A stretch of 64,000 bases of DNA. It comes from Cymbomonas tetramitiformis (taxonomy: Eukaryota; Chlorophyta; Pyramimonadophyceae; Pyramimonadales; Pyramimonadaceae). The notes beneath the pieces are model-generated. The model saw only the letters and a list, made by a program, of their open reading frames with translations. It was not told where the DNA came from and did no database searches. The position numbers and the translations under genes were made by a program. Within the stretch, counting starts at the first letter, position 1; each line of letters starts with the position of its first letter. This document shows, in pieces, positions 29,465 to 57,000 of this stretch. The stretch is from positions 1-64,000 of the forward strand of contig LGRX02029134.1 in NCBI GenBank assembly GCA_001247695.2, written 5' to 3'.

Positions 29465-32400
29465 TGCTGGACTTCGGGTTTAGGCTTAGTTATTATGGGC
29501 TCTGACTAGCCCCTAGCCTGACCCTGCTTCCGTCTCGTGTCCGTGACATCCTAGCACTATACTATACAGTAGTACAGTACAGTAGTACAGTCATCGTTTC
29601 ACTGTCTGGGTTTCCGAGAGCATAAAGCTTCGGCCAGACACAAGTTATATGATTATCAGTTTGATTCCTAGCGAGCTTAGCCGGACAGTGTATCTGTCTT
29701 CCTCGCAGGTTATGGCCCGCACCGGCTTTCCGGTGATTCTGATGATGGCACAGCGCCTTGCTGTTGCCATGTTCGGCTAAGTAGGACGTAGGGGGGGTTG
29801 AGCGCCCACTTGGGCGGTGGTGTATTGCTCTTACGGTATGGCCTTTTAACATGGCAGTGATGGCGGCACACGTTGTGCTCGCCTTCGCTGCGCAGGAGAT
29901 CAGTTTGTGACGGATTATTTTTATTACAGCAGTATCGTCGCCAGGAGAGTTGATTTGTTTCGTGCGCCGCTGGCTCCGGCGAGGTCGTTCCACACGTGAC
30001 TTATTTTGGCCGCTCTTACATCTTCCGCTTACGACCTGTGATTTCCGATCCGTTCAGCTGAGACTTCTACAGAACATCTGGCCGCTGTAAGAGTTCTTAC
30101 GCCGTCTCCCTGTTTAGCTCAACCTTCTCCCCTGTCTCTCCATCATGGTTACCACGGCAAATAGGTTGGCGCGGTCTCGCGTCCGTAGATTAGAAACGAT
30201 TTTTGATGACGTTGGTGCGCAGCACGCTGCGACACCGCACACGCCGCAGCTGCCAGCTCCGACCACCGCAGCTGCGAGGGAAGTTCTAGACAAATGCAAG
30301 CAGTTGGCTCGGGAGAATTTCGACAGAAAAGTTGCCAAGACCGTTGCCACTAAGATTCTAGGAGACAAATCGGAGCGCTTCGCAGGGACAGAGGCAGACG
30401 CGGTGGACATTTTTTCGCAGTTGATGCATGAATTGCGCACGCAGTTCGTGCTTCAATCATCGGCGTTTGCTCCCCTGTTTGAATTGACCGACATGGCTGT
30501 TGAGGCTAGGCATGAGGCCAATGAATTACTGCTTTCGGCTCTGACATTTCTGGCTCGCCCTGGCTCGCCTGCTCGTGACTGGCTTGAGGCCTCTGGGTCC
30601 GACGTTCCTGGAGATGGCAAGCGCGCTGCCCTTGAGGTGGTGCGCATGCTCCAGGAACGCTCGGAACCCTTTGACTCCTTTGAGTTGCTGCTGGCGGTTC
30701 GCATCCCCAGCAGCAAAGATCCTGACCGTGGCATCCGCGAGTTCAATGGCCTGTTGAGGGACGTTCAGCGTTCCCACAACTTGCCGGAGGACGCGGTGAA
30801 GCGGCAGTTTCTGAAAGCTCTCGGCGATTCGTGGCTGTACCGTGATTTGGCTAATTCCCTGGCTCGAGCTGACCAGCGGCAGGGCGTGTCTCTTCTGACT
30901 ATTCAGGCTCGTGTGCGGGAGCAGTTCCGCCATGGCCTGAAAGTCTCTGACGCCCCTGTTTCTGCTCTGTCATTCGGCGATGGCGCGTCTGACCTGGCTG
31001 CGGCGTTGTCCAGTCTGCAGAAGCAGTTGGAGCGCATGCAACAGGACATTCGTGACCTGAAGCGGCAGAAGCGGGAAGGGCCACCGCCTGCGGGCAAGCA
31101 CCTCCCCCGCTCTGCTGCCAAGCATCATCGTGCTGGTGTTCGGCCACTTGGCACCGCTCCTCCTGTCTCGTTTGACAAGAGGAGTGGTGCCTTCGTGCCC
31201 CACTGCAAAAATGCGGTGTGTGCACAAAGTGGTTTGAAGCACTGGCATGCTGAGTGCCCCAACGGCGGTCTTCACTCTGCCCACTATTGTGGTGCAGTTG
31301 AGGACTACGAGACTGACTGCCTGGCTGTTCGTTTCCAGCGTTTCTATGACGCGGGGGATGAACATGCCTTCGAGTCGCTCTGCACGATGGAGGGTCGCCC
31401 GGAGGTGGTCGAGCTGTCGGCGCATTCCTTTGTGCCGGACGAGCCCACATCTCTGAGGCACTTTCAGGATGCGGCGGCTTCCGCTCAGGATGCGGCAGCT
31501 GACGATGACGGCATGGCTCAGTTTGGTCTGGCCACGTTCCACTCGGGTGCACGGGGCTCGATTCCGCCACCGCCTGCGGTTCGGGATCCCTCTGCACTCG
31601 TGGCTGGTGGTGTGCCTACGGCTCATGACCCACCAGTGGCTGTCCCTGGCGCTCTCGGCTTGCCTGGCTCTGTCCCATCACTCCAGCTTGGCGACTCTGC
31701 ACCGGCTCCGCTATTTGCTGGCATGAGGATTGAGGCTTCTGACTTTGGCTCTGAAGTCTCTGACAACGACCAAGGCTCTGACAATGACTCTAACGGCGGG
31801 CAGCAAGTGACTTTTGGCTCCTTCGGCACTCTTGAGCATGACTCTGACAGGGGGGCATCGCCACTAGCAGCTCCGATGTGCCGTCCGCGGGCTCCGCCGA
31901 GTTTTCTCCGGTGTGCATTAATGTCCTCGATGCTATGTTGCTCTCTGCTAGCCAGTGCTACGGCATCTCTGGTTGCCGTGGGCGGTGGTGACAGGGGCCT
32001 GGTTGAGCCCGGAGCCACCGTCCATCGGTCTACTGGAGATCTCTTTGCTTCGGTTTCACCGCTTGGTGCTACGGGCATCCGTGATTGGCCGCCAGATGTT
32101 CGGGTTCTTTTATCTCGTTCTTCAATGTTCAAACCACCATGGGAATCTGCTTGTCTGTATTCTTCAGTTGATTTACTTTCTGCTGTGGAACCGCCTTGCC
32201 CACTTGGGTCTGGTGGTGCTCGATTTCAAAAGGACAGTTTGCAATTCACTTCGGGGATCTTCTGTGTTCACATCCCGACCGCTGAACTCAGCTCTGCTGA
32301 CCAGCTTCAAAGTGGCTGAGTTCCTTGTCAATCATCCTGGCAGCTTGATTAGCTTTAGCCCAGTAGTGGGATGACCGGGTCAAGACCCCGGCACCCAGCT

Positions 32401-41393: not shown

Positions 41394-42160
41394 TCAAGGC
41401 GGCTTCTTACTGTTTTTTAGAGCCTTCTCCTTCTCCGACCTGCTGTGTGAAATCAACATCTTGGCAGCCCATTCCACCGCGATGCTACTGATTTTCTTGA
41501 GGAGGGCCTCCGCTTCCTTCTTGTTGAAGCCTAGGTGTTGCGTGAGAGCCCTTGCGTTGTGTTCATATACCGACCCCGTGGTTCCGAAAACCATCGGGTG
41601 AAAGAACACTTTATAGCCTTTGGATCTGAGTAGTTCCATAAGGGGCTCATACTTGTTGAGTTTATCGTGAAGGGACACATACCAGCGAGTGTCCCACGTG
41701 AAGGCCACCTCTATGAGGTGGATTTCTCCCACATCCTCCCTGTGGGTGTTTTCCGGCCTGCCTGGGGGGGCGTCCCTGACGTCCTCTGCACCCTTGATCA
41801 TGACAATATCCACAAAGTGTGGTATGTCGTCTGGGGGGTCCTTCGCCCCCGGGTGGTCTCTCCCGTCCCTACGGCACTGACCCCTTTTGAGTACGAAGTC
41901 CGGTATCGGGCGGGTACATTTGTTAGTCCCGTCGAGCCCCGCGTGGTGTGCGATCCAGATCGGACTGGCGCCCGTTCGTCCCTTCCTGATCGCTTCGTAA
42001 AGGGTCCTTGCCACTTCGTTGTGCCTGGCTGTGGCCATGTTCATGCTGGTCTCGTCTTTGCATCCAGCCAGCCTGTGTGCCGGAGTGTCCCTCCTCCCGC
42101 AGAGGGCGCAGTCCGGGACCGGATATTTGTTCGGCCATATGAGGTGCTTCCTGGCAGGTC
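41394..42160 (-). CDS. Retrotransposon ORF2 3' part: CCHC knuckle and restriction-like endonuclease
   Basis: This frame continues ORF2 after a one-base shift near 42150-42160. It starts with KHLIWPNKYP, then the knuckle CALCGRRDTPAHRLAGC (C-x2-C-x7-H-x4-C, about 42110-42060). Next come the PD-(D/E)xK-type elements PIPDFVLKRG, VDIVMIKG, IHLIEVAFTWD and KLNKYEPLMELL, as in R2/NeSL/Dualen endonucleases. This enzyme nicks target DNA to prime reverse transcription. Internal ATGs exist but independent translation is unlikely. The frameshift would separate it from the reverse transcriptase unless it is recoded or is a sequencing error. Confidence 0.82.
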
Positions 42161-45100
42161 GTCATGAGGACCCCAAACCGGCACCTTAGAATCAGGGACC
42201 TGAGCGTCGGTGGAGTAACCTTCCAGAAGTGATTGGATATTCCTGGTATCGACTTGTCCTGGAGGATTTCCTGCGGGGGCTCCTCCAGTCTTCTTCCCAT
42301 GTGTGTCTCGACTGCGGCAGCGTCTGCGTGGCTTGTGGCGGCCCTGTCTCCTTTTCTCCGGTGCATGGCCTCCCGGTCCCTGTTCCTCTTTCTTTTTCTC
42401 TCTGGGGCCGCCTCCTGGTAGGCGTCTATCGCTTGTTGTGGAACGTCCGTCAGGTTCTGGAGTTCCGACTCTCCCAGGTCCATCTCCATCATCGAGCGGC
42501 ACAGACCGTCAATTGGGTCCTCACGTTCTGCCTCCTCGATCGCTTGCATCATCTCTCTGTCTGGCGAGTTCATGGCCCCCCTCTCGCCCATGTCCAGAGG
42601 CGGCCCCCGCGTCTCATCGAATTCCCAGAGTAGGTCCCACTCGTCCTGAGTGGCCACTTGATCCCGCGGGTGTACCTGTTCCTGGTCGCCCGGCTCCCGT
42701 CGCTCCGGCGGGTCGTCTTGGCTCCGGGGAGCGTGCTGGAGTTCCTCCAGGAGCATCGGCTCCTGGGGATTCTCCCCTGGTGTCCCCATTTCCACGTTCT
42801 GTCGGCCCCGGTCGGGGCCTTGGGCTGGCCCTGGGGCGCCGGTCGTGGGGTTCTTTGTCATAGAGCCCTCTGCTGAGATAGCTCCCTCCCGATTTCCCCT
42901 GCCGGGTGTTCCCCATTCTTCCCACGGGCTGCTCGGGGGCTGTAGCCATTTTCTCACTGACTTGTGCTGTGTCGCTTTTAGTGCAATTCTTTCTGCCACA
43001 TACCTTTCCACCGCCCCCTCCCCTTGCAGGGGCCTCATCGATTCACCATCCCGGGCATTGGCCACGAGCGTGTACATGGTCCTGTTGTCCCATGGGTCAA
43101 TTTGGGTGGTGCCCTCCTGGTTCTCTGCTGCCTGTTTGGCCGCCTCATCTGCCTTGTCGTTGCCCTTCACCCCCGTGTGGCTTTTGACCTTCCTGAGTGA
43201 GACCTTCGTTCCCTGGCTGTTATGCTGTTCTACCAGGGAGAGTATATCCTCAAGCAAATCCCTGTGTCTGTGGCCCTCCATCGTGTGGGGTCTGGATAAC
43301 ATGTTGAGTATTTGGTACATACTGCAGAGGCTGTCCGTGCAGATTGCTATCTCGCCCGGTGTTGTGCATTCTCTGGCCCTGAGTGCCGCGTGGATCGCCA
43401 GGAGTTCCGCCCTGTTGATGGTGAGGTGTCCACCCGTCGACCACGTGCCCCTCCAAGTTCTGGGGTTTTCATCCCCTCTGGGGTCCCAGTAGGCCGCTCC
43501 CACTCTATGTAACCCCCCTTCTTCCTCTGGGTCCAGTCGCGATCCATCCGTATAGAGGAACGAGGTTGCATCCCAGGCTTTGTTGATTTCCTCTAAGGTT
43601 CTGGAACGTCCGGTTTTGTGCTTAATGGGACACGTGGGGAACCTCTCCCTTACTTCCGTGTGTCCCCTGTCCCTGTCTTGTCTGCTGAAGAGCATGGGAG
43701 TGCGCTCCATTGCTTTCAGCCATCTGGCCCTCGAGTCCTCTTTGATCTTGTCCAACGGCCATGCCGTGTTCGCCTCATGGTACTCCGTGATCGTGACCTC
43801 GGCGAGTCCCCTGTCGCGCCATGTTTGTCTCATGGCCCTCGCCGCCTCCGGGGTGCGGTCTTCCTTGGGGACCTCACCCCCTTCGTTCCCCCATCCCTGT
43901 CTGCGCGACATGCTCGGTATTTCCCATTTTCTCATCGGGTGAGGGTCGAAGATCATGTCGTGTTGACTAGTGCTCTCCATCGCGTTTTTGACCGCCGCCA
44001 TGTCTGACACTGCGTCCGAGGTGTGGACCCTCGGGTTGGCCGGCCTGAGGTTCCGAATCGTGTGGTACTTACGGACCGTGCAGTACGTGCTGCGCTGCAG
44101 GGCCTTCCCGACTAGTTCCGCTGCCCCTTCTGGGTCCGGGCAGAATTTTTGCCATCCCTCTGCGTTGGCAACAACTAGGATCCTAACTCCCCAGTTGCTG
44201 TAGTCCTTCTTCGTGACGCCTGATACTGTGGTGCCTCCCCAGTGGTCTGGGGGAAGGAACGTAAAGCTTTTTCTTGGGATCACCCCAAATTCATGTATCC
44301 TAGTATCTCCATACCTCCTGCAGTATGCCTTGGCTGGCGTTCTCGTCCAGGCCGGATAAATTCCTACCCCCAGTACCGGGGTTTTCGCCATGGTGGACAT
44401 CAGGGCCTCCTTAAGCGCTTTGTCCAGGTCTGCCGCTGTGTACTCCGGATTGAACTCGAAGGCGCCTAGCTCTCCCCATTGGGTGTCCCATGCGGACCCT
44501 TTGGATCCGAAAATCTTGTCCCTGTCGAACTTGGAGCAGTATGTCGCCGTGTGGCTGTGTACGTTGAGCGGCGACGCGAATATCTCCGCTTGGATCCCGA
44601 AGGCCTCCTGGAGCGCTTGCATAATTTCTGGAGGGAGCGTCCAGTGATTTTGCAGTGCAGTTTTCTTGACTTCCTCCTCCTCCTCGCAGGAATATCTTTT
44701 GAGCAGGAGGACTACTTCTGTGGCGAATCCGTGGACTGTGCCTAGCTGTGGCTCCCGCTCCTCGAAGGACCGCCGTCGCTCTTCCCCCGCCTTTGTATGG
44801 GTCTGATCTGCGCTGTCCGTGCCCGCCGCGGCCACATATCTGTCGTAGAGCCTATCGAGTACCTCTTCTTTGAGGGCGCCTATCATCTTGCCTCGCTCGT
44901 CGTGCGCGAACACGTGGTGCCTGCCTGTCTCCGTCGTGAGCGTGCATTTGCCCGAGGGTGCTGCGTCCCAGTCTGGGTTAAAGGGTTCAGTGTCTATGTT
45001 GAGCTCGGTGACCCCCGGCCAGTAGCGGGCATGCCTCGTGGGAGCTCCTGACAGCGGTTCTCTTTCTGTGGGTCTCCGAGCCTGCTGTGCTTCCCGCTCC

Positions 45101-48100
45101 TTGTTGTGGAACGTGTCGGTCTCTCGTTCGGCCCGGCTCGGGTTCATTCCCGCAATTCCTCCTGTCAGCAGTGTGTCCTCTTCGACCCATGCTTCCCCCT
45201 GTGGGCGAACTGGCCCAAGCAGGTATTCCCTGCTTCCCCAGTGCGTCCTAACCGCTAGGATTGTGGTGCTCTCGGACGCCTCAACGGCCTGGGGTTCCTC
45301 CTCCGTCTCTTCGAGCACTTCCGGATTATTGGCAACCGTCGGGCCAGCGCCTACCGAGAGCTCCATGGTGTCGATCCTCCACCACATGTTCCTGCTCCGG
45401 CAGTCATTAACAGGGGGGTGCGTTGCCCATGCGACCTGTTCACTGCTTACGAGGTGCGTGGTCATCAGCCTAACCGCGTCCCTCGGGAATCCGATTTTGG
45501 CCGCATGCTGGAACAACTCCCCAGTCCTGACATCTCCTTTGGACAATTGAGCGAGGACCCATGTCCTCAGCATCATGATCTGCGCCGCGGTCCCCTTCCA
45601 TTTCGTGCCTCTGCCGTCTTCCAGGCTAACCTTTGTGACCCGGTGGGGGCTTGTTTCCCTCTGGGGCGTCTGCGCAGGCGGATTCGGCCTGGGTCTGATC
45701 TCCTCGCTCTCCACCGTGGCCTGGGGGCATTGTATGATCTGCCTGGTCCTTTTCTCACCGACCTTCGGGAGCTCCCGGGCGTGCCTGGGGGTTGCTGGCA
45801 CCGTGTTTGCCTGGGTCTGCCTGGTCGGGCTCCTCCCGACTTGCATTGGCCCCGCGCCGGCCTCTTCCTGGATTTCGTCATCCACTTCCTCGAAGGAGAT
45901 TGGGTCATGAGTCTCTCCCTCCCCGTGGAACACGTGGTGGCGCTCCCGTTGTTCCAATTCTCCTATGCGCGCCATGATTGGGCCTCTCATGGCTTTCCTG
46001 TATCCCTTGGAGGTCGTAGCTTCTCCGCCCACCGGGGGCCCATGCAGCCCGATCCAGGACTCCCACTTCTCTCCTGTGGTGGACCTGTTCCATTCCTGCC
46101 ACTTGTCAATCATGTAGCACACCCAGACGCCGCATTGGTATCCGTCCCGTTGGTGTGCGACCCCCATGTTGGAGACCGTTACGTTGACCGGCGGCCATCC
46201 CGGCGGTCCTGCCCACTGTCTCAGCGCCGTCAGTAGGCGCGTGTCTTCCCCCCCCATTGGGTCGTAGAGGTAGATTGAAACACTGGTGTCCTCATTTTTT
46301 CCGAATAGGAGCACATTCCAGTGGCTGCCGTCGCAAGTCAGGACAAAGGAAAATCCCTCGTCCCGGACCGTTTCCATCGTGTTGCGCATCTGCGCCTCGT
46401 ATTGTTCCGACTGCTCGAACTCGGTTCCGTTGAGGGCATCCGCGAGTTTCGTTTGGTGCATCGACACTGTGTCCAAGCCTGTCGTGCAGAGGCTGTGGGT
46501 TTCCACTTGTATGGAGCTAAGCCACGCCTCCCTGCCTCTGGTGTCCGAGAAGACCCCTTCCGTCCTGTGCCTGGGGGTGCCCTCCCCCCGGGGCTCGTTT
46601 CCTCTTCTTCCTCCCCCCTTCAGGAGGCTGTCCGCATGGGACCCCTCAGAGCGGTTTCTCCTCATCGCCCTCCTGCTGTCCATCGCCTCCTTCTCGGTGA
46701 TTCTCGCTCCAGCTCTGGCTGCGTGTCGCAGGTCTGAGAGGAATTTTTCCGCCTCGGTTTGCCTGGGTCTCACGCCCACGGAGTCCATTATCATGACTCT
46801 ACCCCCCGGGTCCTCACGCAGGGTGGGTCTGACTCCAATATCGTGGCATTTAAAGGCGTCTTCGTGGTCTTCCTCGTCCTTGGCGCAATAACCTGTCGTC
46901 ATTTGTTTTAAGGCGTTTTTGGCCTGCATGGAGGTCGTGGGGGGTCCTCTTCTTCCTGCGTGCCACAGCGATCGCGGGCCCCATTTGGATTGAGTGGGGT
47001 GGAAGCCCTCTTCCCAAGTGGTTGGTTCTTCCCCTTCGGTCGCCTGGGGTTCTGCCAACCTTTGGAACCCTAGAGCGTTGTGTGCCTCTTTGGACGGCAT
47101 AAACTGGGGTTTGAGGGTGAGGTTCTTCGGGTTGTCCCAGAATCGCGCGTCGTTGGGCTTGTCAGCGAGCGCTTCGCATATATATGGGTACAGCATGAGC
47201 ATGAAGGTTCGCATGCGCCCTTGAAACCTGGCGGGGACTTTTGCTTTTGCTTCTCTGAGGCTGCACGCACGGGTGCCCCCCTTCGCCACATAAAACCCCT
47301 CCTCCACGAAAGGGAGCAGAGGCAGCAGCGTGGTCAGACTAAGCGGAATTTCCTCCTGGTCATTGACTGAGTAGATCTTCACGCTCTCCTCACCCGTGTC
47401 CTGGTCAACGACCGTTCTGTGTCTGCCTTCGAGCGCACTCGGGAAGGGCTTCCGAACCGCGTTCGCAAGTTTGGAGATAACCCCGTGCTGGGTGTTAATC
47501 AGGTCCGCCAGCAGCGGTCCAGATCCTGTGAGCGAGACTTGGTGCTCACGTAGCACCGCAAGTTGCCGGGCTGTGCAGCACCTGTCGAGTTCCCCAGTTC
47601 TGACCGTACCGTCCACCTGTCCCTGTCTGCGGTTGTAATGATACCTGACCAGCCCCCTCGTGGTGGCACTAAGTTGAGAGGTCTGCTTGGCATGAAAGGC
47701 CTCACTTTCCCTGAACACCTCTCTCGGTCTTTCTCGAAGGTCTTCTCTGGTGGCGGTGGCCATCTGCAGGGCGCTCGCCACACTTTGTGCGTACGTGGCC
47801 AGCAGTGGTGTGTGCCCAAGTCCGTAGGAGGTTTTCGGGAGTGCCGTGTAGCAATTAGCGGTGCCTCTTGGCAGTCCATTAAGGAGCTTGTATGCCCCGC
47901 CGATAGTCGCGTCTAGGTCCTCGATTTCTTTGGTAGAAAAAATCCCTAGGGGAAGGGCATATCTAAGCTGTCCTATAACTGCCGAGCGGAGGACCTCCTC
48001 TTGCTGTCCGCTCGTCAGAGGGGAGTGGAGGAGCGCCTGTATCCTTTCCCTTGCCTGCAGAAAGGAGGCTTGCTTTTGGACCGTCCAGTCCCCCGAGAGG

Positions 48101-51100
48101 GCTACTTGTATCCCAAGGTACTTGTATGGGTCATCCGGGTGGAGGTACGGGAATCCATGCTTGCCTACCCTGGGGGTGCGCATGGTGACATCCTCGTATG
48201 TCTCCTCAGGGATCGGAGACCCTTTTTCGTCCGTTCCCGTAATTCCGCATTTGGTCTTGTTGATTCGAAGTCCACTCCAATTGGAGTAGAGTTCCAGCTT
48301 CCTGACTTGCACTGCCAGTTGCGTTGCCGACTCCGCGATCAGGGCGAGATCGTCCACATATGCCGCCGAGGAAGTGCGAATTGGTTTGTCCGAATCCGTG
48401 AGGCGGTGCATATACCCCTTGTTGCCCGCCTTGAGCCAGCGTAGTAGGGGTTCCAAATAGAGAATAAAGAGCAGGGGGCTTAGCGAGTCTCCCTGCACTA
48501 GTCCCCTTTTGACCATGAGGGGCTCCGAGCTGTAGTGCTCTATCTTTGAGGCCATCCTAAAGGGTGACCTGTGTGCCTCCCCCCCGTAGAGGTCTGCCAC
48601 CACTCTGACCGCGTCTTCCGGGATCCCCAGGTACTTCATGGTGTGCTGGAGTCTGTCATGCTCCACCGATCCGTAGGCGTTCTCGAAGTCCACGTAGAGA
48701 ACATGCAGTTGGCTGTGGGACAGTTTGCTGTCCTCGATAACATGCTGCAGTCGAAGGAGCTGGTTGATCGTGCTTCTGTGTTTCCTAGAACCCATCTGCT
48801 CTTGGCTGTGGATACTGTTTACCTCGCAGAACGTGGATAGAACATCCGTGACCATTGCCGTATAAAGCTTGAGAATTGTGCGGAGAAGCCCTATGGGCCT
48901 GTAGTTGGAGAACACAGAGGTGTCCCCTTTCTTATGTAGGTAGACAAAGGTGCCCAACTTCCAAGTGCCTGGGGCTATCCCCGCTTTCCACATCGCCCTC
49001 ATGAGCGAGAAGAGAAATTCGTGGAATTCCTCCGGCATAGCCTTGAGGATTTCATTTGGTACCGCATCCGGGCCGGCTGCCTTCCCGTTGGGGAGCCGCT
49101 TGACAATTTGTCTGTAGAGTTCAATAGTGAGCCTGCTCCCAAGCTCCGTCTTCCTCGGTCTTTGCCCCGGTTTCATGCTATCCGGGGCTTCCGCCGCCAG
49201 CCATGGCATCTCTTCGTCCAGTTGGTCCGTCCTGGGGTGTTCGAAGCAATATGGGTCCGAGTGGGCCATGTGCCCCGAAAAGGCCTCTGCGGTGGCCACC
49301 GCCCCGACTGCCATTTTGTTGTTTCTGTCCCATATCCCCAAGGTTCTTCCTTTCGGGAGTGCGTCGCGGTCTCTGAAGACGAACCTGTGGGCTGACTTTT
49401 TCATGCGATAGTAGTTACTACGGAATTTCTGGACGAATGTCTCCCAGGTTTCGGCTTTATGGTCTTTGATAACGGACTTGGCCTCCTGCCTGAACCTGCT
49501 CATCTCAGACTCCGCCCACCAGTGGGGGTCTTCCGGCTCCGCACACGTGTCAGGTCTGCCCTTCGCCGTGTCCCGTGGCTCCGCCATGGCTTCCTCTAGC
49601 AGTGCCGCGCTGGGGGTTTCCCCTGTTGCCCTCTCTATCGCAAGCATCTCCTGTAGGACCGCCGCTGCCTTCAGCGCTTTATCACGCTTCCTGAATTTAG
49701 ATTTTGGTAGTCTGACCCCTGTGTTGGGGTCCCTGGTGACCTTGGGCTTGCACCTGACGGTTTCAAGGGGGATCTCCACTGCCCGCATGGCTTGCTGAAG
49801 AACCCCATCAACTGCCTTCCCGGCCTCATCAATTCTTTCCCTGGCGTCCGGGCTTCCCCTTTCCGCCGCGTCGACCGCGTTTTCGATCACTGTCTTGAAT
49901 TCAATTTCCCTGAGACTCGGCTGGAGCGCCGAATCTATTGCCGCCTTCATTGAGCGTTGCAAGGCTTTGGAGATCGGGAATTGATATTTCGTGATCGGGT
50001 CGGGTTTCGCCTGCTCCTCTACTATCGGTGTGGTCGTGTGAAGCTTCCACAGCGGCACCGCCGCCACTGCCGCTTGGTGGTCGCTGCAGTGCCTGTGTGC
50101 CCTGGTGTCGATCGGGTGCCGTTCGTCAGCGATCCGCTGAAGCTCTTCTGACGCTAACCACCCATCGATTTTGTGGTCCCCAAACGTGGGTCCTTGCGGG
50201 CAGCTGATCTCTGCAAGGCCCGCCCGGTCAGACATCCCTCTCCATGCACGGTGTTCTATCCCGTCTTGCTCTCTGGGGATCTCCGCGACGTTGAAGTCTC
50301 CCCCCACCACCATGTGCTCCCCCTTCCTGGAAGCCACTGCGGCCTCTCGGGTTATGTAATCACGGATACACGTCCTGACCACCGCTTCTTCCGGGTGGGG
50401 AGGGTTGTAGACACCGAGCACGTGCACCTTCACGCCGCTTGGCAGCGTAATAACTACATGCTGTAGATACCCTTTCGCGCATCTGGGGACTTCACGGTTA
50501 GCGCGCACGTCCGTCCTGTCGTAGGGGCGTCTGAGGGCTAGGACCACCCCCCCTCTGTACGAAGTACCATCCGCCCCCCTCCTCTGGGTTCCATGGCACG
50601 GCGCTGAGTGCCAGGCGCTGTAACCCAGCCCTTGGAGTTTTTTTGGTCCCATGGGGCCCGCCGCCTTTGTTTCTGTGAGAACCAGCACGTCCGGCTGGTG
50701 TTCCTCGCAACTCCTGGCGAGATCATAGTACGCGTGGTCGCTTCCTCTGATATTCCAGGTCATCAGGGACAGCCTACCTTCCTCCCCCACATCTGGTGGG
50801 GGTGTTTGATTCTCTTTGTCGCTGTGGTGATTTGGTTCATTTTTAGATTCTCGTGCACTATTGCCCCAGCAGCCAAGCACGGTCTTTGCGCCTGCCCTAT
50901 GCTGTCTCTTCTGCTGAGCTGGCGCCTGTCCGCTTCCCGTCACTTGTTGTAGTGGCCTGAGCACTGCCCTTTTGCCGGGTACTCTACTACTCCCGCTCCG
51001 GGTGCCGGCCTGGCATTCCGCTTGTTCCTCCTGCTTGGTGGCGATTTGCATGACGATTCTGTGTTGTTTTGCCACCCTATTGTTTGTCGTTTTCCCAGTG

Positions 51101-51852
51101 CCCCCAGCGGCTCTGTGCGCCGCCCTTGGCCAGGTTGACCTCTCTGGGGATTTCGTCCAGTCGCACCATGCTGCCGCCATCACCGCGACCCAGACCCCAC
51201 ACTGAAAGTCATCGTACTGAGTACGGAGTTTGATGCACGTGATTTCGGTAGGGACCCCCTGCTTTGTCCTTCTCTCTGCCCACTTTCGGGTGGCGTCCAG
51301 CAGCTCCTCATGCCCCCTCGCTCCTTCCCGTGGGTTGGGTCCGTAGGAGTCAAAGAGGTGCACGTGGGTGCCCCCCCCTTCCCCGGCCTGTTGGTCAAAG
51401 AAGAGGGCCCTCCAGTGCTCTCCGTCACACAGCGGCTGGTACGCGAACCTCCCGTTCGCGAGCAGGCCATCGATCCCATCCCTGGCCAGAAGTTTGGAGA
51501 GGAATTTGTGCTGGTTCATCTCCTCCGGCGGAGCCGGGTCAATTGTGTGAAGGTACCGGCTGAGTTGCACATCTGATATACGTCCCTCCACCGTGTAGAG
51601 GCCCCCCTCCTCTTGGGGGTTCGCGCCCCGTGTCTGGTTCCTTGGGGGGGGGGCGCTTTTCACCCCCCCCACCGCTAAGGGGGGGGGTGGAGGGTTGATC
51701 TTCCCCTCCTCTGCGAGACTTCCTGTTCTTGTCCCTATCTTCGAGCTCTTTCCTGACTTTCCGCAGCATGCCGACCGGAACAAAAACACAGTTGCTGTTC
51801 CTCCCCGCAAAATTCCTGCGGAGGGAGGTCCTCCCTGCAGCGCTATTGACAT
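41923..51852 (-). CDS. Retrotransposon ORF2: ULP1-APE-RT-ULP1-PCIF1-like-RNase H polyprotein
   Basis: 3309 codons, open throughout. Approximate residues: 95-240 ULP1/C48 protease (GEHW His, LFDSYG Asp, FQCGVWV Gln/Cys); 358-600 APE endonuclease (MTWNIRG, LTETKA, GGDFNV, SDHQA); 900-1200 reverse transcriptase (GKAAGPDAVPNE, VDFENAY, YVDDLAL at 48353-48370); 1780-1930 second ULP1-like protease (GSHWNVLLF, YLYDPMG, YQCGVWV); 2410-2590 PCIF1-like adenine methyltransferase-type domain (EIFASPLN, YCSKFD, FGSKGS, FEFNPEY at about 44447); 2762-2915 RNase H (YTDGS, NRAELLAI, CTDSLC, GNDKADE). After a low-complexity linker, the segment leading to the CCHC knuckle begins at about 3190. The ORF overlaps ORF1 by 314 nt in another frame, so its true start (51852, a later ATG, or a frameshift from ORF1) is unknown. 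The last about 75 codons after 42157 are out-of-frame noise. Confidence 0.9.
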   Translation of the reverse strand: MSIALQGGPPSAGILRGGTATVFLFRSACCGKSGKSSKIGTRTGSLAEEGKINPPPPPLAVGGVKSAPPPRNQTRGANPQEEGGLYTVEGRISDVQLSRYLHTIDPAPPEEMNQHKFLSKLLARDGIDGLLANGRFAYQPLCDGEHWRALFFDQQAGEGGGTHVHLFDSYGPNPREGARGHEELLDATRKWAERRTKQGVPTEITCIKLRTQYDDFQCGVWVAVMAAAWCDWTKSPERSTWPRAAHRAAGGTGKTTNNRVAKQHRIVMQIATKQEEQAECQAGTRSGSSRVPGKRAVLRPLQQVTGSGQAPAQQKRQHRAGAKTVLGCWGNSARESKNEPNHHSDKENQTPPPDVGEEGRLSLMTWNIRGSDHAYYDLARSCEEHQPDVLVLTETKAAGPMGPKKLQGLGYSAWHSAPCHGTQRRGADGTSYRGGVVLALRRPYDRTDVRANREVPRCAKGYLQHVVITLPSGVKVHVLGVYNPPHPEEAVVRTCIRDYITREAAVASRKGEHMVVGGDFNVAEIPREQDGIEHRAWRGMSDRAGLAEISCPQGPTFGDHKIDGWLASEELQRIADERHPIDTRAHRHCSDHQAAVAAVPLWKLHTTTPIVEEQAKPDPITKYQFPISKALQRSMKAAIDSALQPSLREIEFKTVIENAVDAAERGSPDARERIDEAGKAVDGVLQQAMRAVEIPLETVRCKPKVTRDPNTGVRLPKSKFRKRDKALKAAAVLQEMLAIERATGETPSAALLEEAMAEPRDTAKGRPDTCAEPEDPHWWAESEMSRFRQEAKSVIKDHKAETWETFVQKFRSNYYRMKKSAHRFVFRDRDALPKGRTLGIWDRNNKMAVGAVATAEAFSGHMAHSDPYCFEHPRTDQLDEEMPWLAAEAPDSMKPGQRPRKTELGSRLTIELYRQIVKRLPNGKAAGPDAVPNEILKAMPEEFHEFLFSLMRAMWKAGIAPGTWKLGTFVYLHKKGDTSVFSNYRPIGLLRTILKLYTAMVTDVLSTFCEVNSIHSQEQMGSRKHRSTINQLLRLQHVIEDSKLSHSQLHVLYVDFENAYGSVEHDRLQHTMKYLGIPEDAVRVVADLYGGEAHRSPFRMASKIEHYSSEPLMVKRGLVQGDSLSPLLFILYLEPLLRWLKAGNKGYMHRLTDSDKPIRTSSAAYVDDLALIAESATQLAVQVRKLELYSNWSGLRINKTKCGITGTDEKGSPIPEETYEDVTMRTPRVGKHGFPYLHPDDPYKYLGIQVALSGDWTVQKQASFLQARERIQALLHSPLTSGQQEEVLRSAVIGQLRYALPLGIFSTKEIEDLDATIGGAYKLLNGLPRGTANCYTALPKTSYGLGHTPLLATYAQSVASALQMATATREDLRERPREVFRESEAFHAKQTSQLSATTRGLVRYHYNRRQGQVDGTVRTGELDRCCTARQLAVLREHQVSLTGSGPLLADLINTQHGVISKLANAVRKPFPSALEGRHRTVVDQDTGEESVKIYSVNDQEEIPLSLTTLLPLLPFVEEGFYVAKGGTRACSLREAKAKVPARFQGRMRTFMLMLYPYICEALADKPNDARFWDNPKNLTLKPQFMPSKEAHNALGFQRLAEPQATEGEEPTTWEEGFHPTQSKWGPRSLWHAGRRGPPTTSMQAKNALKQMTTGYCAKDEEDHEDAFKCHDIGVRPTLREDPGGRVMIMDSVGVRPRQTEAEKFLSDLRHAARAGARITEKEAMDSRRAMRRNRSEGSHADSLLKGGGRRGNEPRGEGTPRHRTEGVFSDTRGREAWLSSIQVETHSLCTTGLDTVSMHQTKLADALNGTEFEQSEQYEAQMRNTMETVRDEGFSFVLTCDGSHWNVLLFGKNEDTSVSIYLYDPMGGEDTRLLTALRQWAGPPGWPPVNVTVSNMGVAHQRDGYQCGVWVCYMIDKWQEWNRSTTGEKWESWIGLHGPPVGGEATTSKGYRKAMRGPIMARIGELEQRERHHVFHGEGETHDPISFEEVDDEIQEEAGAGPMQVGRSPTRQTQANTVPATPRHARELPKVGEKRTRQIIQCPQATVESEEIRPRPNPPAQTPQRETSPHRVTKVSLEDGRGTKWKGTAAQIMMLRTWVLAQLSKGDVRTGELFQHAAKIGFPRDAVRLMTTHLVSSEQVAWATHPPVNDCRSRNMWWRIDTMELSVGAGPTVANNPEVLEETEEEPQAVEASESTTILAVRTHWGSREYLLGPVRPQGEAWVEEDTLLTGGIAGMNPSRAERETDTFHNKEREAQQARRPTEREPLSGAPTRHARYWPGVTELNIDTEPFNPDWDAAPSGKCTLTTETGRHHVFAHDERGKMIGALKEEVLDRLYDRYVAAAGTDSADQTHTKAGEERRRSFEEREPQLGTVHGFATEVVLLLKRYSCEEEEEVKKTALQNHWTLPPEIMQALQEAFGIQAEIFASPLNVHSHTATYCSKFDRDKIFGSKGSAWDTQWGELGAFEFNPEYTAADLDKALKEALMSTMAKTPVLGVGIYPAWTRTPAKAYCRRYGDTRIHEFGVIPRKSFTFLPPDHWGGTTVSGVTKKDYSNWGVRILVVANAEGWQKFCPDPEGAAELVGKALQRSTYCTVRKYHTIRNLRPANPRVHTSDAVSDMAAVKNAMESTSQHDMIFDPHPMRKWEIPSMSRRQGWGNEGGEVPKEDRTPEAARAMRQTWRDRGLAEVTITEYHEANTAWPLDKIKEDSRARWLKAMERTPMLFSRQDRDRGHTEVRERFPTCPIKHKTGRSRTLEEINKAWDATSFLYTDGSRLDPEEEGGLHRVGAAYWDPRGDENPRTWRGTWSTGGHLTINRAELLAIHAALRARECTTPGEIAICTDSLCSMYQILNMLSRPHTMEGHRHRDLLEDILSLVEQHNSQGTKVSLRKVKSHTGVKGNDKADEAAKQAAENQEGTTQIDPWDNRTMYTLVANARDGESMRPLQGEGAVERYVAERIALKATQHKSVRKWLQPPSSPWEEWGTPGRGNREGAISAEGSMTKNPTTGAPGPAQGPDRGRQNVEMGTPGENPQEPMLLEELQHAPRSQDDPPERREPGDQEQVHPRDQVATQDEWDLLWEFDETRGPPLDMGERGAMNSPDREMMQAIEEAEREDPIDGLCRSMMEMDLGESELQNLTDVPQQAIDAYQEAAPERKRKRNRDREAMHRRKGDRAATSHADAAAVETHMGRRLEEPPQEILQDKSIPGISNHFWKVTPPTLRSLILRCRFGVLMTTCQEAPHMAEQISGPGLRPLREEGHSGTQAGWMQRRDQHEHGHSQAQRSGKDPLRSDQEGTNGRQSDLDRTPRGARRD

Positions 51853-53960
51853 AGAAGAGGCTTCCCCCGTCCATCGCCTCTCTCCAATACCATTTCCCCC
51901 TCTTGTGCATCCAGGGTGTGTTCTTCCTTTGATTCCTCCAAACCCAGACTTCTGGGCCTTGATGTGAGTACACAGTCCCCCCCGGGGCAGAGTCGTTTAT
52001 TTGCGTTCGTGTTATTAAGATTCTGATCCCGCGGTGGGTAATAGCCAAGATTCCCATCATTACGAGGCATGCGGAAATAAGTAATGTGTGCTGCCGGTCC
52101 ATCACGAGTTTAAAGTGTCCCGGGAGCACGAGACTCGGTGACAAGAAGTGCAGCATTATGCCAAATTTTTCGAACTCTCCCTCCCTTGGGTGGTCCCCCT
52201 CTGTTATCAGATCGGGGGTGTGATTACAAGAGGCAGTTAATACAAATAAGCAATAGGTTTCATTGTTCTGCAGGTATTTATCGTACTTCCTATTGCCACT
52301 GCCTCTCCCTGGCCAGCGCGTGCCGGGAGGCGTCAACTTGTGCCCCCTCCAGGCTGTGCCTCCACCAGGTGTGCTCGCCTGCCTGCATTCTGCATCTCCG
52401 TCTACCCTCGTCCGGTGCCTGTTCTCGGCCCATCGTCTCGCATCAGATTCTGTGTGCCTGTGGAGGGGTTGCATTATACCGGTCAGATCACCATCCTGGC
52501 AAGATGGCCAAGCATTCAGAACTGGCAAGGGAGCACTGACCTGAGCCCTGAGCTCGTCGAGGCGCTTTAGTGCCGCCCTGCCGTCAGGGTTGTCAAACTC
52601 CTGTGGAATTGCGGGGCCTGTCTCAGGCCTCCCATACTGCCGAGGGTCCTTGCCCAGGGCCTCCGCCAGGGGCCTCGGCTGGGCAGTGGGCTGGGCAGTC
52701 GGCTGTTGCTGGAGCTGTGTGCCCCACTGTGGGTACAGCCCCTGTGCCAGGTGCGAATATTGGGCCTGTGGCGGCCCCAATGGCACCTGGTGCGGCAGCT
52801 GCAGCGGGGCTGCCGGAGGGGGCTGCAGCTGCTGGGGCTGTTGCTGTTGGCCCAGGTAGCTCTGCCCCCCTTGAGGCATCAGCTGGACCCCGTGCTGCAG
52901 CAGCCCCGTGACCTGCCCAGACAGCTGGGTGATCGCTGACATCTGCCTGTCCGAGGCTTGCACCTGCTGGCTTACCACCTCGGTGAGAGCCTTCACGGAG
53001 TCGGCTAGCGACGCTAGTTCGCCGCCCGCCCGAGGAGCCTGCGCTGCTGGCGGCTCCGGTGGTAGCTGCCTGCCGTACCCCTGGTCCTGCGCAAACAGCT
53101 GGGTCGGCTGTACCTGACCGTAGTATGAGCCTTTGGCTCCTTTGCCCTGCCCCTTTCCCGCGTATCTGGGCCTCTGTCTCGGGGGCTGCTGTGGGCTTCG
53201 TTGGGTCATCCACCTGGACCTCGGGCTGCAGGCGATGTGAAACTTTACGTTCCCGATGTGGAAGAACATACGGTTCGTGGTGCGATGCGAGACTGCCTCG
53301 TATGTGGCAGCCTCCACCGTTACCCAGTACCTGCAGGCCTCCCTGCTGTCCCTGTCCGGGAGCGGTTGGGCGAGAGTGATGAGTTCCCCCACCCCCCTTT
53401 CTGATGGGGGGGAGGGAACCGGAAACACCTCGATGCCTGTCTGCGACCGCAGCTCCCGCTTCGCTGCAGAGAGGACCTGTTCCACCCTGTCTGCAGAGTG
53501 CCAGTGTCTGCCTTCCGGTGGCCTGGCAACCACCTCCAGTTCCCACTCCTGGAACTTTGTGATATCTGCGGTGGAGGAGTATTTGTGCACTGTGACTGGG
53601 TGCCCATAGAACTCATATGGGAGTCCCAGCCGCAGTGCCCTGTCAGCCTCGTCCACTCGCGAGAACACCACGATGGCGACGTCCAGTGCTGTCGCCCTGG
53701 CCTCCTCCCAGTGTGGCCTTCCCTTACCGATGTAAACAATGTTTCGGGCTCCCCCCTCGAGCACCACTCCCGCCGAGATGCTGTTGGCCACTTCAGCCAC
53801 ACCCTGCCCAACCAGCCCGACGGACTGCAGGATGACCGTGCGGTCGGCTGGGAGCGAGTCCCTGTCCTGCTTCATCGGGCACCTGTGCACGTCCCTGGCG
53901 ACACTGGCTTTGGGGGTGCCCACTGCCCCGTGCTTCCAGCGGTCGGCATAGCCCCACGGA
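51539..53960 (-). CDS. Retrotransposon ORF1: RRM-like, Q/P-rich, WW-like
   Basis: The open frame actually begins at 54175 inside fabD sequence (first 71 codons); element-derived coding starts at 53960. Counting from 54175: residues 110-200 resemble an RRM (RNIVYIGKG, IVVFSRVDEADRAL, YEFYGHPVTVHKY); 340-510 are Gly/Lys- then Gln/Pro-rich with a likely helix at 385-430; 688-712 are hydrophobic (LLISACLVMMGILAI), a possible membrane segment; 762-786 resemble a WW domain (WYWREAMDGGSLFYVN, then GRTS, second Trp missing); the C-terminus is Gly/Pro/Arg-rich. Expected role: binds element RNA as nucleoprotein. No own ATG precedes the RRM-like part after the junction except one at about residue 101. 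The N-terminus is therefore likely truncated. Confidence 0.7.
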
Positions 53961-54043
53961 GGGACTCGCTCCTTCTTTATGGCGCCGAAACGAGTAAAGC
54001 TCGTCGGATTGACCAGGTGCATCCGGGATGCGAGGAGTCGCAC

Positions 54044-57000
54044 CTTTTCGAGGTTCTCGCGTGCAGGGTTCATCATGGGCGTGTGGAAAGCGCCGCTGAC
54101 AGCCACGGCTTGAGCCTGCTTGCACGAAAACCCGCGACGGCTATTGATCTTCCACTTCCACGCCCACGTGTCCACTGCAGGACTTCGAGTGGATCAACAT
54201 ATGTAATACCGCGGTGAGCCAGCAGTATGAAGCGTAGCGTCTTATACAGGAAACGCGTGCGTCACTTCTACGAGAGCTACTTGAAGGGGGAGAAGGAAGA
54301 GGCCCTCAGCTGATACTCTATGTCAGGATAACGGTACGGGCACCGAAGTTCGATGCGCGGATCGTTCGGATATCGTTCGGCAAATTGGAAGTGTTCTATT
54401 GACAGGAAGTAGGTCACCTTGAGTGCCCCCTTGGCAGTGGCGCGCTTCTGCAGCTCGGAGAGCGCAGTCAATGTACCGGACGCTACCCTCCCTTGAGGAA
54501 ACAGGAAGTTCGCCAGCTGGCAGACCGTGCCGGGCATAGCCTCGCGCACCTCCTTGCACAGATCCTGCAACAGCAGCAGTCGTGCTTCTCCTTGAGCTTC
54601 AGTTTAACCCCTAACTTCCCTCGAGGCGCCACTGGCTCCTCCCCAGATCACCCAGGCCTATGTGCTCTTTCTGTTAGCAGCAATACTTTCTCCCGCTGTG
54701 GTGCACCACCAGTGGCATGTGAGCTCAATGCGTTAGCGAGCTGGGATCCGTTTGGGGTCGTTCGCACCTGAAGATCGGGGTCGTTCAGCCCGACAATTGT
54801 CATCATACCGTGTGGCTCTCCCATGGTGGCGGCCATTGACATGCTCTCTGCGCGCACCTTCACCACCTGCATAGAAGAGGGCGCGCAAAGCCGTGTCCGT
54901 ACAAGGATCAGGTCTGAAGGACCTCGGCAAAAAGAACAACTTACTCTCGGCACCTCTGCAGCCTCTCTTAATATTTAACTTGAGAACAGCACTTTCTTCA
55001 TTCTAACAAAACAGGCTCCGCAAAACTCGTGACGCCTGAAAGTGAAACTTGTTTCGTTGCGGCAAAACTTGCTCTCCTGCGCTCGTGCTGCATAAGAAAG
55101 CGATTCTTTGTTTTGCGGTAAAAATGGCTCTCCGTAACTCCTCACGGCCGAAAGTGACAATTGTTTTGTTAAGGCAAAATAGGCTCTCTGCAGCTCGTCA
55201 CGCCTCAGAACGGCACTAGTTTCGTTGTGGCCAAATAGGCGCTCCGCAGCCTGCGTTGCCTAAAGAATACCTTTCGCACCCACGGTTGTCCGCAGGTCGC
55301 CTCCAGGCTCTGGTGCATCTACAAAGAGATGCTAGCGTCCTCCAGTCCGTCAAAAGACCCACACAAAAGGACACACAAGGGAACGCAAGCGGGAAGTCTC
55401 TTGATGTCGAGTCTGCACAAAGACAGGGAAGAACCCCAGAGGCGGCACCTTCATGGCATCCTCAAAGCTCAGCACGCCAGCGAACACGAGCGCGGTGTAC
55501 TCGCCCAGGCTCAGCCCCGCCGTGCATGAGGCCCTGCGCCACACAAAGTTGCACCCCTGGGTGGTTCTGGGCAGAACATAAACTATGCAGGCAGCGGAGG
55601 CGATGCACGATGCATGAAGCGGAGGCGATGTACAACACTATGAGGCGAAAAAGGGTTTCAAGAGGGGGAAACGTATAGGACGAGGCGCAAGATGGCTAAG
55701 AATTCCTCCTCCGGCGAATTCCTTTGGATTCGACGAAATTCGAAGAAACAGCTAGGTGACGACCCGGGTATCAGTTCAAGACCCGGACAGGCGTCTACCA
55801 GCGAATTCACCCTGAACACTCCGGGGTCAAGGGGAAGTTGCAGAAGATCACCCAAGGATGCACACCGCCCTGGCACTTTGGAAAGGCGGCCTCAGGTATT
55901 GTGCGCACGGAATTGGGGGAGGCAGCACAATCCTCGTGAGAACGGGACAGCGGCGGCCTGCAGACAGCTTGGATGGTGTGGAGAAGCCTTGGCAGCCACA
56001 CGGTGCATACACTTTCCTTGCGCCGTTCTCTTGTGACCACCAGCAACCTAGCAACCACACTGCCCAGTAGTGCTCTGTATGGCTGCAGCATATACCCGCG
56101 CCCGGAATCTGGGTACCAGCACACACTTGGGCCCTGCTTTATCCAGTTTCTCCGTAGCTCCGTGGAGTTCGACCGTAGCTCCGTGGAGTTCGACCGTAGC
56201 TCCGTGGAGTTCGAGACCCTCTTCTCTCAATTGAGCGTTCCGACACCCTCTTCGGATGCCTCGCCCTCAACACCTCCTCGTTATGATCGGGTCGGTGGGT
56301 GGGTGGGTGGGAGGGTGTGCACGTGTCTCAGGGGTTGCTATGCGGGCAGTTCGGCTCGGTAGAGGAGGAGCAAGCGAGACGCACCCCAACACAGCTTGAG
56401 GATCTGTTTGTCGCAGCATCTCTACGGCAGCACAACCACCGACGAATAAGGCGGGTTGGGAATATCTTGTGTCGTCGATTTTGGCTTTGGGGCCCTCTAA
56501 GCAAACTTCCAGCAGGTCGTATCCAAGCACCTGAGGCGACACCGAATCTTTCAGCTCCTCCACACAAATCTTTGACTTGCGTGCTCGACTCCTCTTCAAG
56601 GTGCGCCGCCTCACCTTGTTCGCGGTCTCAAACATGGCTTTCACGGCGGGAATATCCTTTGCCTTTGCGCACATACCCACGGCCTGCAATCCACAGGGAA
56701 AAGAGCGCGTTTGTCTCACCGGTGAAGGAAATACTGTGCTTGTGAACAGAATTTTTCTCTCTGTTGAGATACTACGGCGCATAGCTAGTCGTTCAGCTAC
56801 TCGAGCTGGCCTCGTATAGCCGTATAATAGATACCATCGTCCTAAACGCGTTCACCACTTTCAGTAGAACAAACCGGTGCGCAGTAGCAGAAAAAACACG
56901 CAGCACTCGACCAGTTATTCGCCTTGTCACTGTGAGGGGGGATGTTATGACCGCGTCTGTGCAGGAAAGGAGTGTGTGCACAGTGCTTCCAGCTGGCGCG

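Follow-up and report, generated by a model that had tools for sequence, protein, structure and literature searches.

A PCIF1/CAPAM-like domain with an altered motif IV in a putatively Dualen-like retrotransposon of the green alga Cymbomonas tetramitiformis

Introduction

The closest described counterparts of the locus studied here are the cap-specific adenosine N6-methyltransferase PCIF1/CAPAM (PDB 6IRV-6IS0) and Dualen/RandI, a type of retrotransposon lacking long terminal repeats (non-LTR). In passages of PMC4640811, Dualen is described as encoding both endonucleases, APE and restriction-like, and RNase H is reported from Dualen/RandI. The text of PMC8226300 mentions Dualen in Chlamydomonas species, and the word methyltransferase was not found in it. 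The Pfam family PF12237 corresponds to the methyltransferase and not to the WW domain of PCIF1, and choanoflagellate eTudor-DCD proteins carry a CAPAM-like domain (both from excerpts of PMC7641849). In Drosophila Pcif1 the motif reads NPPH, with His in place of Phe, and N6,2'-O-dimethyladenosine (m6Am) is absent (PMC9479742, in part). Here we analyze 64,000 nucleotides of the Cymbomonas tetramitiformis contig LGRX02029134.1 (positions 1 to 64,000; hereafter the window), in which the second open reading frame (ORF2) of a non-LTR element encodes a PCIF1/CAPAM-like domain between its reverse transcriptase (RT) and its RNase H.

Results

The domain lies on the minus strand, in the ORF2 frame, and is delimited by the following features:

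44044..44973, minus strand: PCIF1/CAPAM-like domain as modelled, ORF2 residues 2342-2651
44335..44736, minus strand: Pfam PF12237 match, ORF2 residues 2421-2554, E=7.5e-20
44563..44586, minus strand: EIFASPLN motif, ORF2 frame
44524-44541, minus strand: YCSKFD, ORF2 frame
44494-44511, minus strand: FGSKGS, ORF2 frame
44446-44466, minus strand: GAFEFNP, ORF2 frame
44440..44451, minus strand: NPEY, ORF2 residues 2516-2519, at the position of the CAPAM catalytic NPPF in alignments
44143-44157, minus strand: GWQKF, ORF2 frame

The PF12237 match scores 71.7 bits against a curated cut-off of 31.1, and the modelled window domain matches the CAPAM fold; on this profile and fold evidence the homology to PCIF1/CAPAM put forward by the original prediction is upheld. 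The similarity is far above chance level: a profile built from seven other proteins only (P0009-P0015) recovers the window ORF among 202 sequences at E=2.9e-46, while the best of 200 shuffles reached E=3.1 and the reversed ORF was absent from the match list. All five landmarks on which that prediction relied (EIFASPLN, YCSKFD, FGSKGS, GAFEFNP and GWQKF) are found, in order, in one open minus-strand frame. Its residue numbers (2410-2590) differ from a stop-to-stop count (2471-2618) by an offset only, and the domain does occupy its interval of 44080..44640 but extends further (44335-44736 by Pfam, 44044-44973 as modelled). The prediction overlooked that the NP closing GAFEFNP opens an NPEY motif, at the place of NPPF in CAPAM. 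The FASPL core is unchanged in 11 of 11 aligned rows, if not in every gene-model fragment. No WW domain was found among the eight Pfam families listed for this ORF with E values of 1 or less, a scan that a short, diverged WW domain could escape.

The altered motif IV is widespread. The NPPF of CAPAM aligns with NPEY in the window domain, where the motif of the active enzyme is not found. Motif IV was readable in 29 of 32 proteins, as NPEY (24), NLEY (one, gene model P0023), HPPE (three) or HPAE (one); many of the 32 are related copies from one alga, so that the 24 are not independent cases. HPPE and HPAE occur in one clade, and both the Asn and the aromatic residue are lost in the HPPE clade. 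Of 19 genome copies from several subfamilies, one of them the window copy itself, 18 carry NPEY and one SPEY (L092, Cymbomonas), and NPEY was present in 40 of 40 copies in another reading, a sample biased by being taken from the best-scoring family matches. In N6-adenine methyltransferases the adenine is contacted by the Asn, the carbonyl of the first Pro and the aromatic residue; NPEY therefore keeps the contacting positions and HPPE does not.

The cap contacts were also considered. According to part of PMC11550742, the cap ribose is recognized by Arg239, Arg269 and Glu563. We presume that Glu563, in zebrafish numbering, is the second residue past the motif, as counted along the aligned chains. 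For Arg239 and Arg269, a profile of the N-terminal part of the domain gave 12 PDB matches at E up to 10 and none of them was CAPAM, the first row of the alignment being short and misaligned at its end; the 12 were WD40 repeat and designed propeller proteins, coat proteins and DCN1-like proteins.

A lack of recurrence would have refuted the original prediction; the fusion is instead present in numerous copies as well as in divergent elements of other origin. Nine proteins were returned for the window domain as query and seven for P0009, six of the latter being new. A profile search, covering 8000 candidate proteins of length similar to the query, added at least 17 further proteins, many of them short pieces. 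The closest protein, annotated in C. tetramitiformis, is 99% identical over the searched region; seven other annotated proteins of this alga show 46-47% identity. PF12237 exceeds its curated cut-off in 12 of the 15 other proteins P0001-P0015 and falls below it in P0011 (31.0), P0012 (23.3) and P0010 (16.6). Pfam places RT, PCIF1-like domain and RNase H in this order in 13 of 16 proteins (the window ORF and P0001-P0015); P0001 has RT followed by the PCIF1-like domain without an RNase H match, P0005 has APE and the PCIF1-like domain only, and P0006 has the PCIF1-like domain, then RNase H and, beyond these, domains that belong to another retroelement. At the genome level (851.7 Mb assembly), at least 151 matches were obtained, 150 of 2094 first-look candidates being scored, and 12 rows among the matches listed have open frames of 3529-3533 amino acids. 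A degenerate codon pattern for FEFNPEY occurs at 317 genome sites, compared to none for the reversed pattern. For an updated Cymbomonas assembly, PMC10675990 gives a size of 914.3 Mb, of which 38.5 Mb are long interspersed nuclear elements (LINEs); its main text does not mention PCIF1.

Some of these proteins carry further domains. Near the N-terminus of P0009, residues 401-494 weakly match an OTU-type cysteine protease (E=0.0038, below cut-off), and no Ulp1-like match is among those listed in the Pfam scan of this protein. The Dam family of DNA N6-adenine methyltransferases (PF05869) matches residues 2418-2488 of P0006 (E=5e-11) and residues 151-232 of P0031 (E=1.5e-7). Both proteins are gene models from Cymbomonas in which a PCIF1-like piece is present as well, and both look like joined, nested elements; their Dam and PCIF1-like domains probably belong to different mobile elements.

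An RT tree (522 columns) and a PCIF1 core tree (215 columns) of the same 14 proteins, from which P0005 and P0006 were left out for a short or missing RT match, recover the same three groups, namely Cymbomonas, P0013-15 and P0009-12, and the Cymbomonas subgroups match too. P0009-P0011 sit on long branches in the PCIF1 tree. With three main groups, this deep agreement of the two trees is, taken alone, weak evidence, to which the shared position of the domain adds. Between groups, the PCIF1-like domain is 29-36% identical.

Constraint was estimated as the ratio of nonsynonymous to synonymous substitution rates (dN/dS). Relative to one other copy (C95), the PCIF1 core (202 codons) has a dN/dS of 0.040 and RT one of 0.058. 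The stretches that follow RT and the domain give 0.073 and 0.116, respectively, the protease 0.113, the N-terminal part of the domain 0.151, and linkers 0.219 and 0.321. Relative to a second copy (C5992), which is without RT, the core stands at 0.095, the N-terminal part at 0.107, the protease at 0.198 and linkers at 0.143-0.277; the C5992 matches overlap, suggesting a frame change within the core, and 190 in-frame codons give 0.02. Across 17 listed copy pairs, which share members, core dN/dS is 0.01-0.09 at dS 0.35-1.0. Because the core is as constrained as RT in the single full comparison, that with C95, a passenger role is unlikely.

The same assembly also holds a CAPAM/PCIF1 gene (G000:C9884, L014, about 313-1040), with FECFASPLN and FEANPPF in separate exon-like stretches. 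Since its exons appear to be split by introns, we take it to be, presumably, the alga's own gene. A mix-up of this gene with the elements was considered and rejected: the codon pattern FExNPPF occurs at five genome sites, compared to one with the pattern backwards, and one of the five is the C9884 CAPAM exon while the other four do not match the domain profile (E>3). A viral origin was likewise set aside within the viruses collected, since no relative was among the 39 pattern matches obtained when viral contigs were scanned with the domain alignment. Similarly, tblastn found no relative in the phage collection, which represents collected phages only.

The remainder of the element is arranged as follows:

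51539..54193, minus strand: upstream ORF and ORF1 candidate, 884 aa stop to stop, overlapping ORF2
41923..51996, minus strand: ORF2, 3357 aa stop to stop
51130..51678, minus strand: first Ulp1-like protease, ORF2 residues about 107-289, by similarity to another copy
50278..50763, minus strand: APE-type endonuclease PF03372, ORF2 residues 412-573, Pfam E=3.7e-15
48103..48933, minus strand: reverse transcriptase PF00078, ORF2 residues 1022-1298, Pfam E=6.2e-30
46105..46368, minus strand: second Ulp1/C48-like protease, ORF2 residues about 1877-1964, weak Pfam matches
43126..43560, minus strand: RNase H PF00075, ORF2 residues 2813-2957, Pfam E=2.1e-16
41394..42161, minus strand: probable restriction-like endonuclease region, in a frame that differs from ORF2 in the window copy

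This Pfam order bears out the predicted position of the PCIF1-like domain between the second protease and RNase H of a non-LTR element. The second protease matches LupA (E=3e-5) and Peptidase_C48 (E=0.079), both below the curated cut-off. The first Ulp1-like region is without a match of its own in the Pfam scan of ORF2; because its similarity to another copy (28% identity) falls within the second-protease region there, the two regions may represent an internal duplication. The restriction-like endonuclease region has zero Pfam matches and aligns with C-terminal slices of P0009, P0012 and P0014; the top two hits of its profile in the PDB are R2 protein C-termini at non-significant E values (0.096 and 0.14). 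Together with the APE domain and the green algal host, this probable endonuclease suggests that the element is Dualen-like.

A Pfam scan of the upstream 884 aa ORF, which is partly rich in Gln and Pro, gave zero matches. Elsewhere in the window, an open frame of 733 aa on the plus strand (30118-32319), judged by eye, may be gag-like and belong to another retroelement.

Discussion

We hypothesize that an ancestor of these Dualen-like LINEs captured a CAPAM (PCIF1) methyltransferase domain, fused between RT and RNase H, and that the domain has since been inherited along with RT under strong purifying selection. The domain would act in cis on the element RNA, recognizing its 5' end by the cap or first adenosine, either within the ribonucleoprotein or at cDNA completion, and this binding or modification would serve cis preference, stability or completion of the cDNA at the 5' end. 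The element's own RNA is proposed as target because the parent enzyme recognizes a capped 5' adenosine and the domain resides in the element's own polypeptide. We give this capture-and-cis-action account about an even chance. More tentatively, and at somewhat below even confidence, we suggest that the 5'-end module exists in two forms, an active NPEY writer in some lineages and a dead HPPE reader of the cap or 5' end in another. In the HPPE clade the domain is, by its motif, most likely a non-catalytic binding module. Catalysis is possible in NPEY lineages because Asn, the first Pro and the aromatic residue are retained, but it is probably altered.

Several observations weigh against this account. 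Only 245 residues align within CAPAM 195-668, leaving much of the chain without a counterpart, and the presumed Glu563 position is Ala in the window (NPEYTA); a cap-specific role is weakened on both counts. The PF12237 scores of P0010 and P0012 are well below the cut-off. That the own 5' end is the target is argued from the parent family, and the location of the activity is likewise presumed. Finally, the strong conservation of NPEY makes an active enzyme that has changed its substrate a serious competing explanation.

An active cap-adenosine N6-methyltransferase, for which NPEY works and which places m6Am on the element's own transcripts for stability, translation or evasion of RNA surveillance, is in our judgment unlikely. 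The predicted fold match to CAPAM speaks for it, as does the retention, under strong constraint, of FASPLN and of three motif IV residues, namely Asn, the first Pro and the aromatic one. Bee PCIF1 has Tyr for Phe and m6Am is undetected there, an absence that the authors doubt is explained by this change (PMC9479742, in part). Against such a cap writer, the third motif residue has changed from Pro to Glu, the presumed cap-ribose Glu is not retained, and Asn and the aromatic residue are lost in the HPPE clade; moreover, motif mutants of PCIF1 have lowered activity, N553A and F556G in PMC11550742 and others in PMC6318281 (from parts of both). The original prediction is thus upheld in part: PCIF1-type homology stands, and, given NPEY in place of NPPF, the methylation of cap or DNA adenines that it raised is hypothetical.

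A DNA N6-adenine methyltransferase that modifies the target DNA or newly made cDNA seems improbable. A methyltransferase with another substrate, such as an adenosine inside RNA, a different base, or a protein (RT or histone), is somewhat less so but still doubtful: N6AMT1/HemK, grouped under NPPF/Y motifs, methylates protein (according to part of PMC8868631), and the Glu newly gained and conserved in the motif may point to a changed substrate. Together, active NPEY methyltransferases other than a cap writer are unlikely. A functionless, decayed passenger would agree with a motif IV that departs from the active enzyme; a core dN/dS of 0.04, slightly below RT and well below linkers in one copy, and a domain kept at such distances between groups speak against it. 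Decay is therefore very improbable and already largely refuted by the constraint data.

Non-LTR elements must select their own full-length RNA, and their 5'-end recognition is poorly understood. A CAPAM-derived domain within the element protein, constrained about like RT, would offer a direct handle on this step, and would be a case of selfish DNA having captured cap-adenosine machinery. If the reading of a writer and a reader form holds, these would be, to our knowledge, the first mobile elements to encode such machinery themselves, tying RNA 5'-end recognition and reverse transcription in one polypeptide. The variants found in nature, NPPF in the cellular gene and NPEY or HPPE in elements, would allow motif IV residues to be sorted into those for catalysis and those for binding. 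No paper on a PCIF1-RT fusion was among the open PMC papers listed, and an earlier mention in subscription papers is possible; databases already label such proteins with both PF12237 and RVT_1 by automated annotation. With the domain family and the element type known, we rate their combination with an altered active site as new.

Comparison with known systems

Unlike PCIF1/CAPAM, the window domain is part of a retrotransposon polyprotein, and the elements carry NPEY or HPPE/HPAE where PCIF1/CAPAM has NPPF. PCIF1 proper also has an N-terminal WW domain binding the C-terminal domain of RNA polymerase II, whereas the window ORF has no listed WW match. Like Drosophila Pcif1, the elements retain a CAPAM-family protein with an altered motif IV; Drosophila Pcif1 is, however, a stand-alone cellular gene, and the changed motif residue differs. 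The choanoflagellate eTudor-DCD proteins resemble the window element in that a CAPAM-like domain is fused into a larger protein, but they are cellular, and RT is unmentioned in the relevant excerpts of their description. Like Dualen/RandI, in which an APE endonuclease accompanies RT, the window ORF has both domains by Pfam, and the element shares with them RNase H, a probable restriction-like endonuclease region and a green algal host. The original Dualen sequences may hold the same domain unrecognized; compared to Dualen/RandI as described, the window element adds a PCIF1-like domain and two Ulp1-like protease regions.
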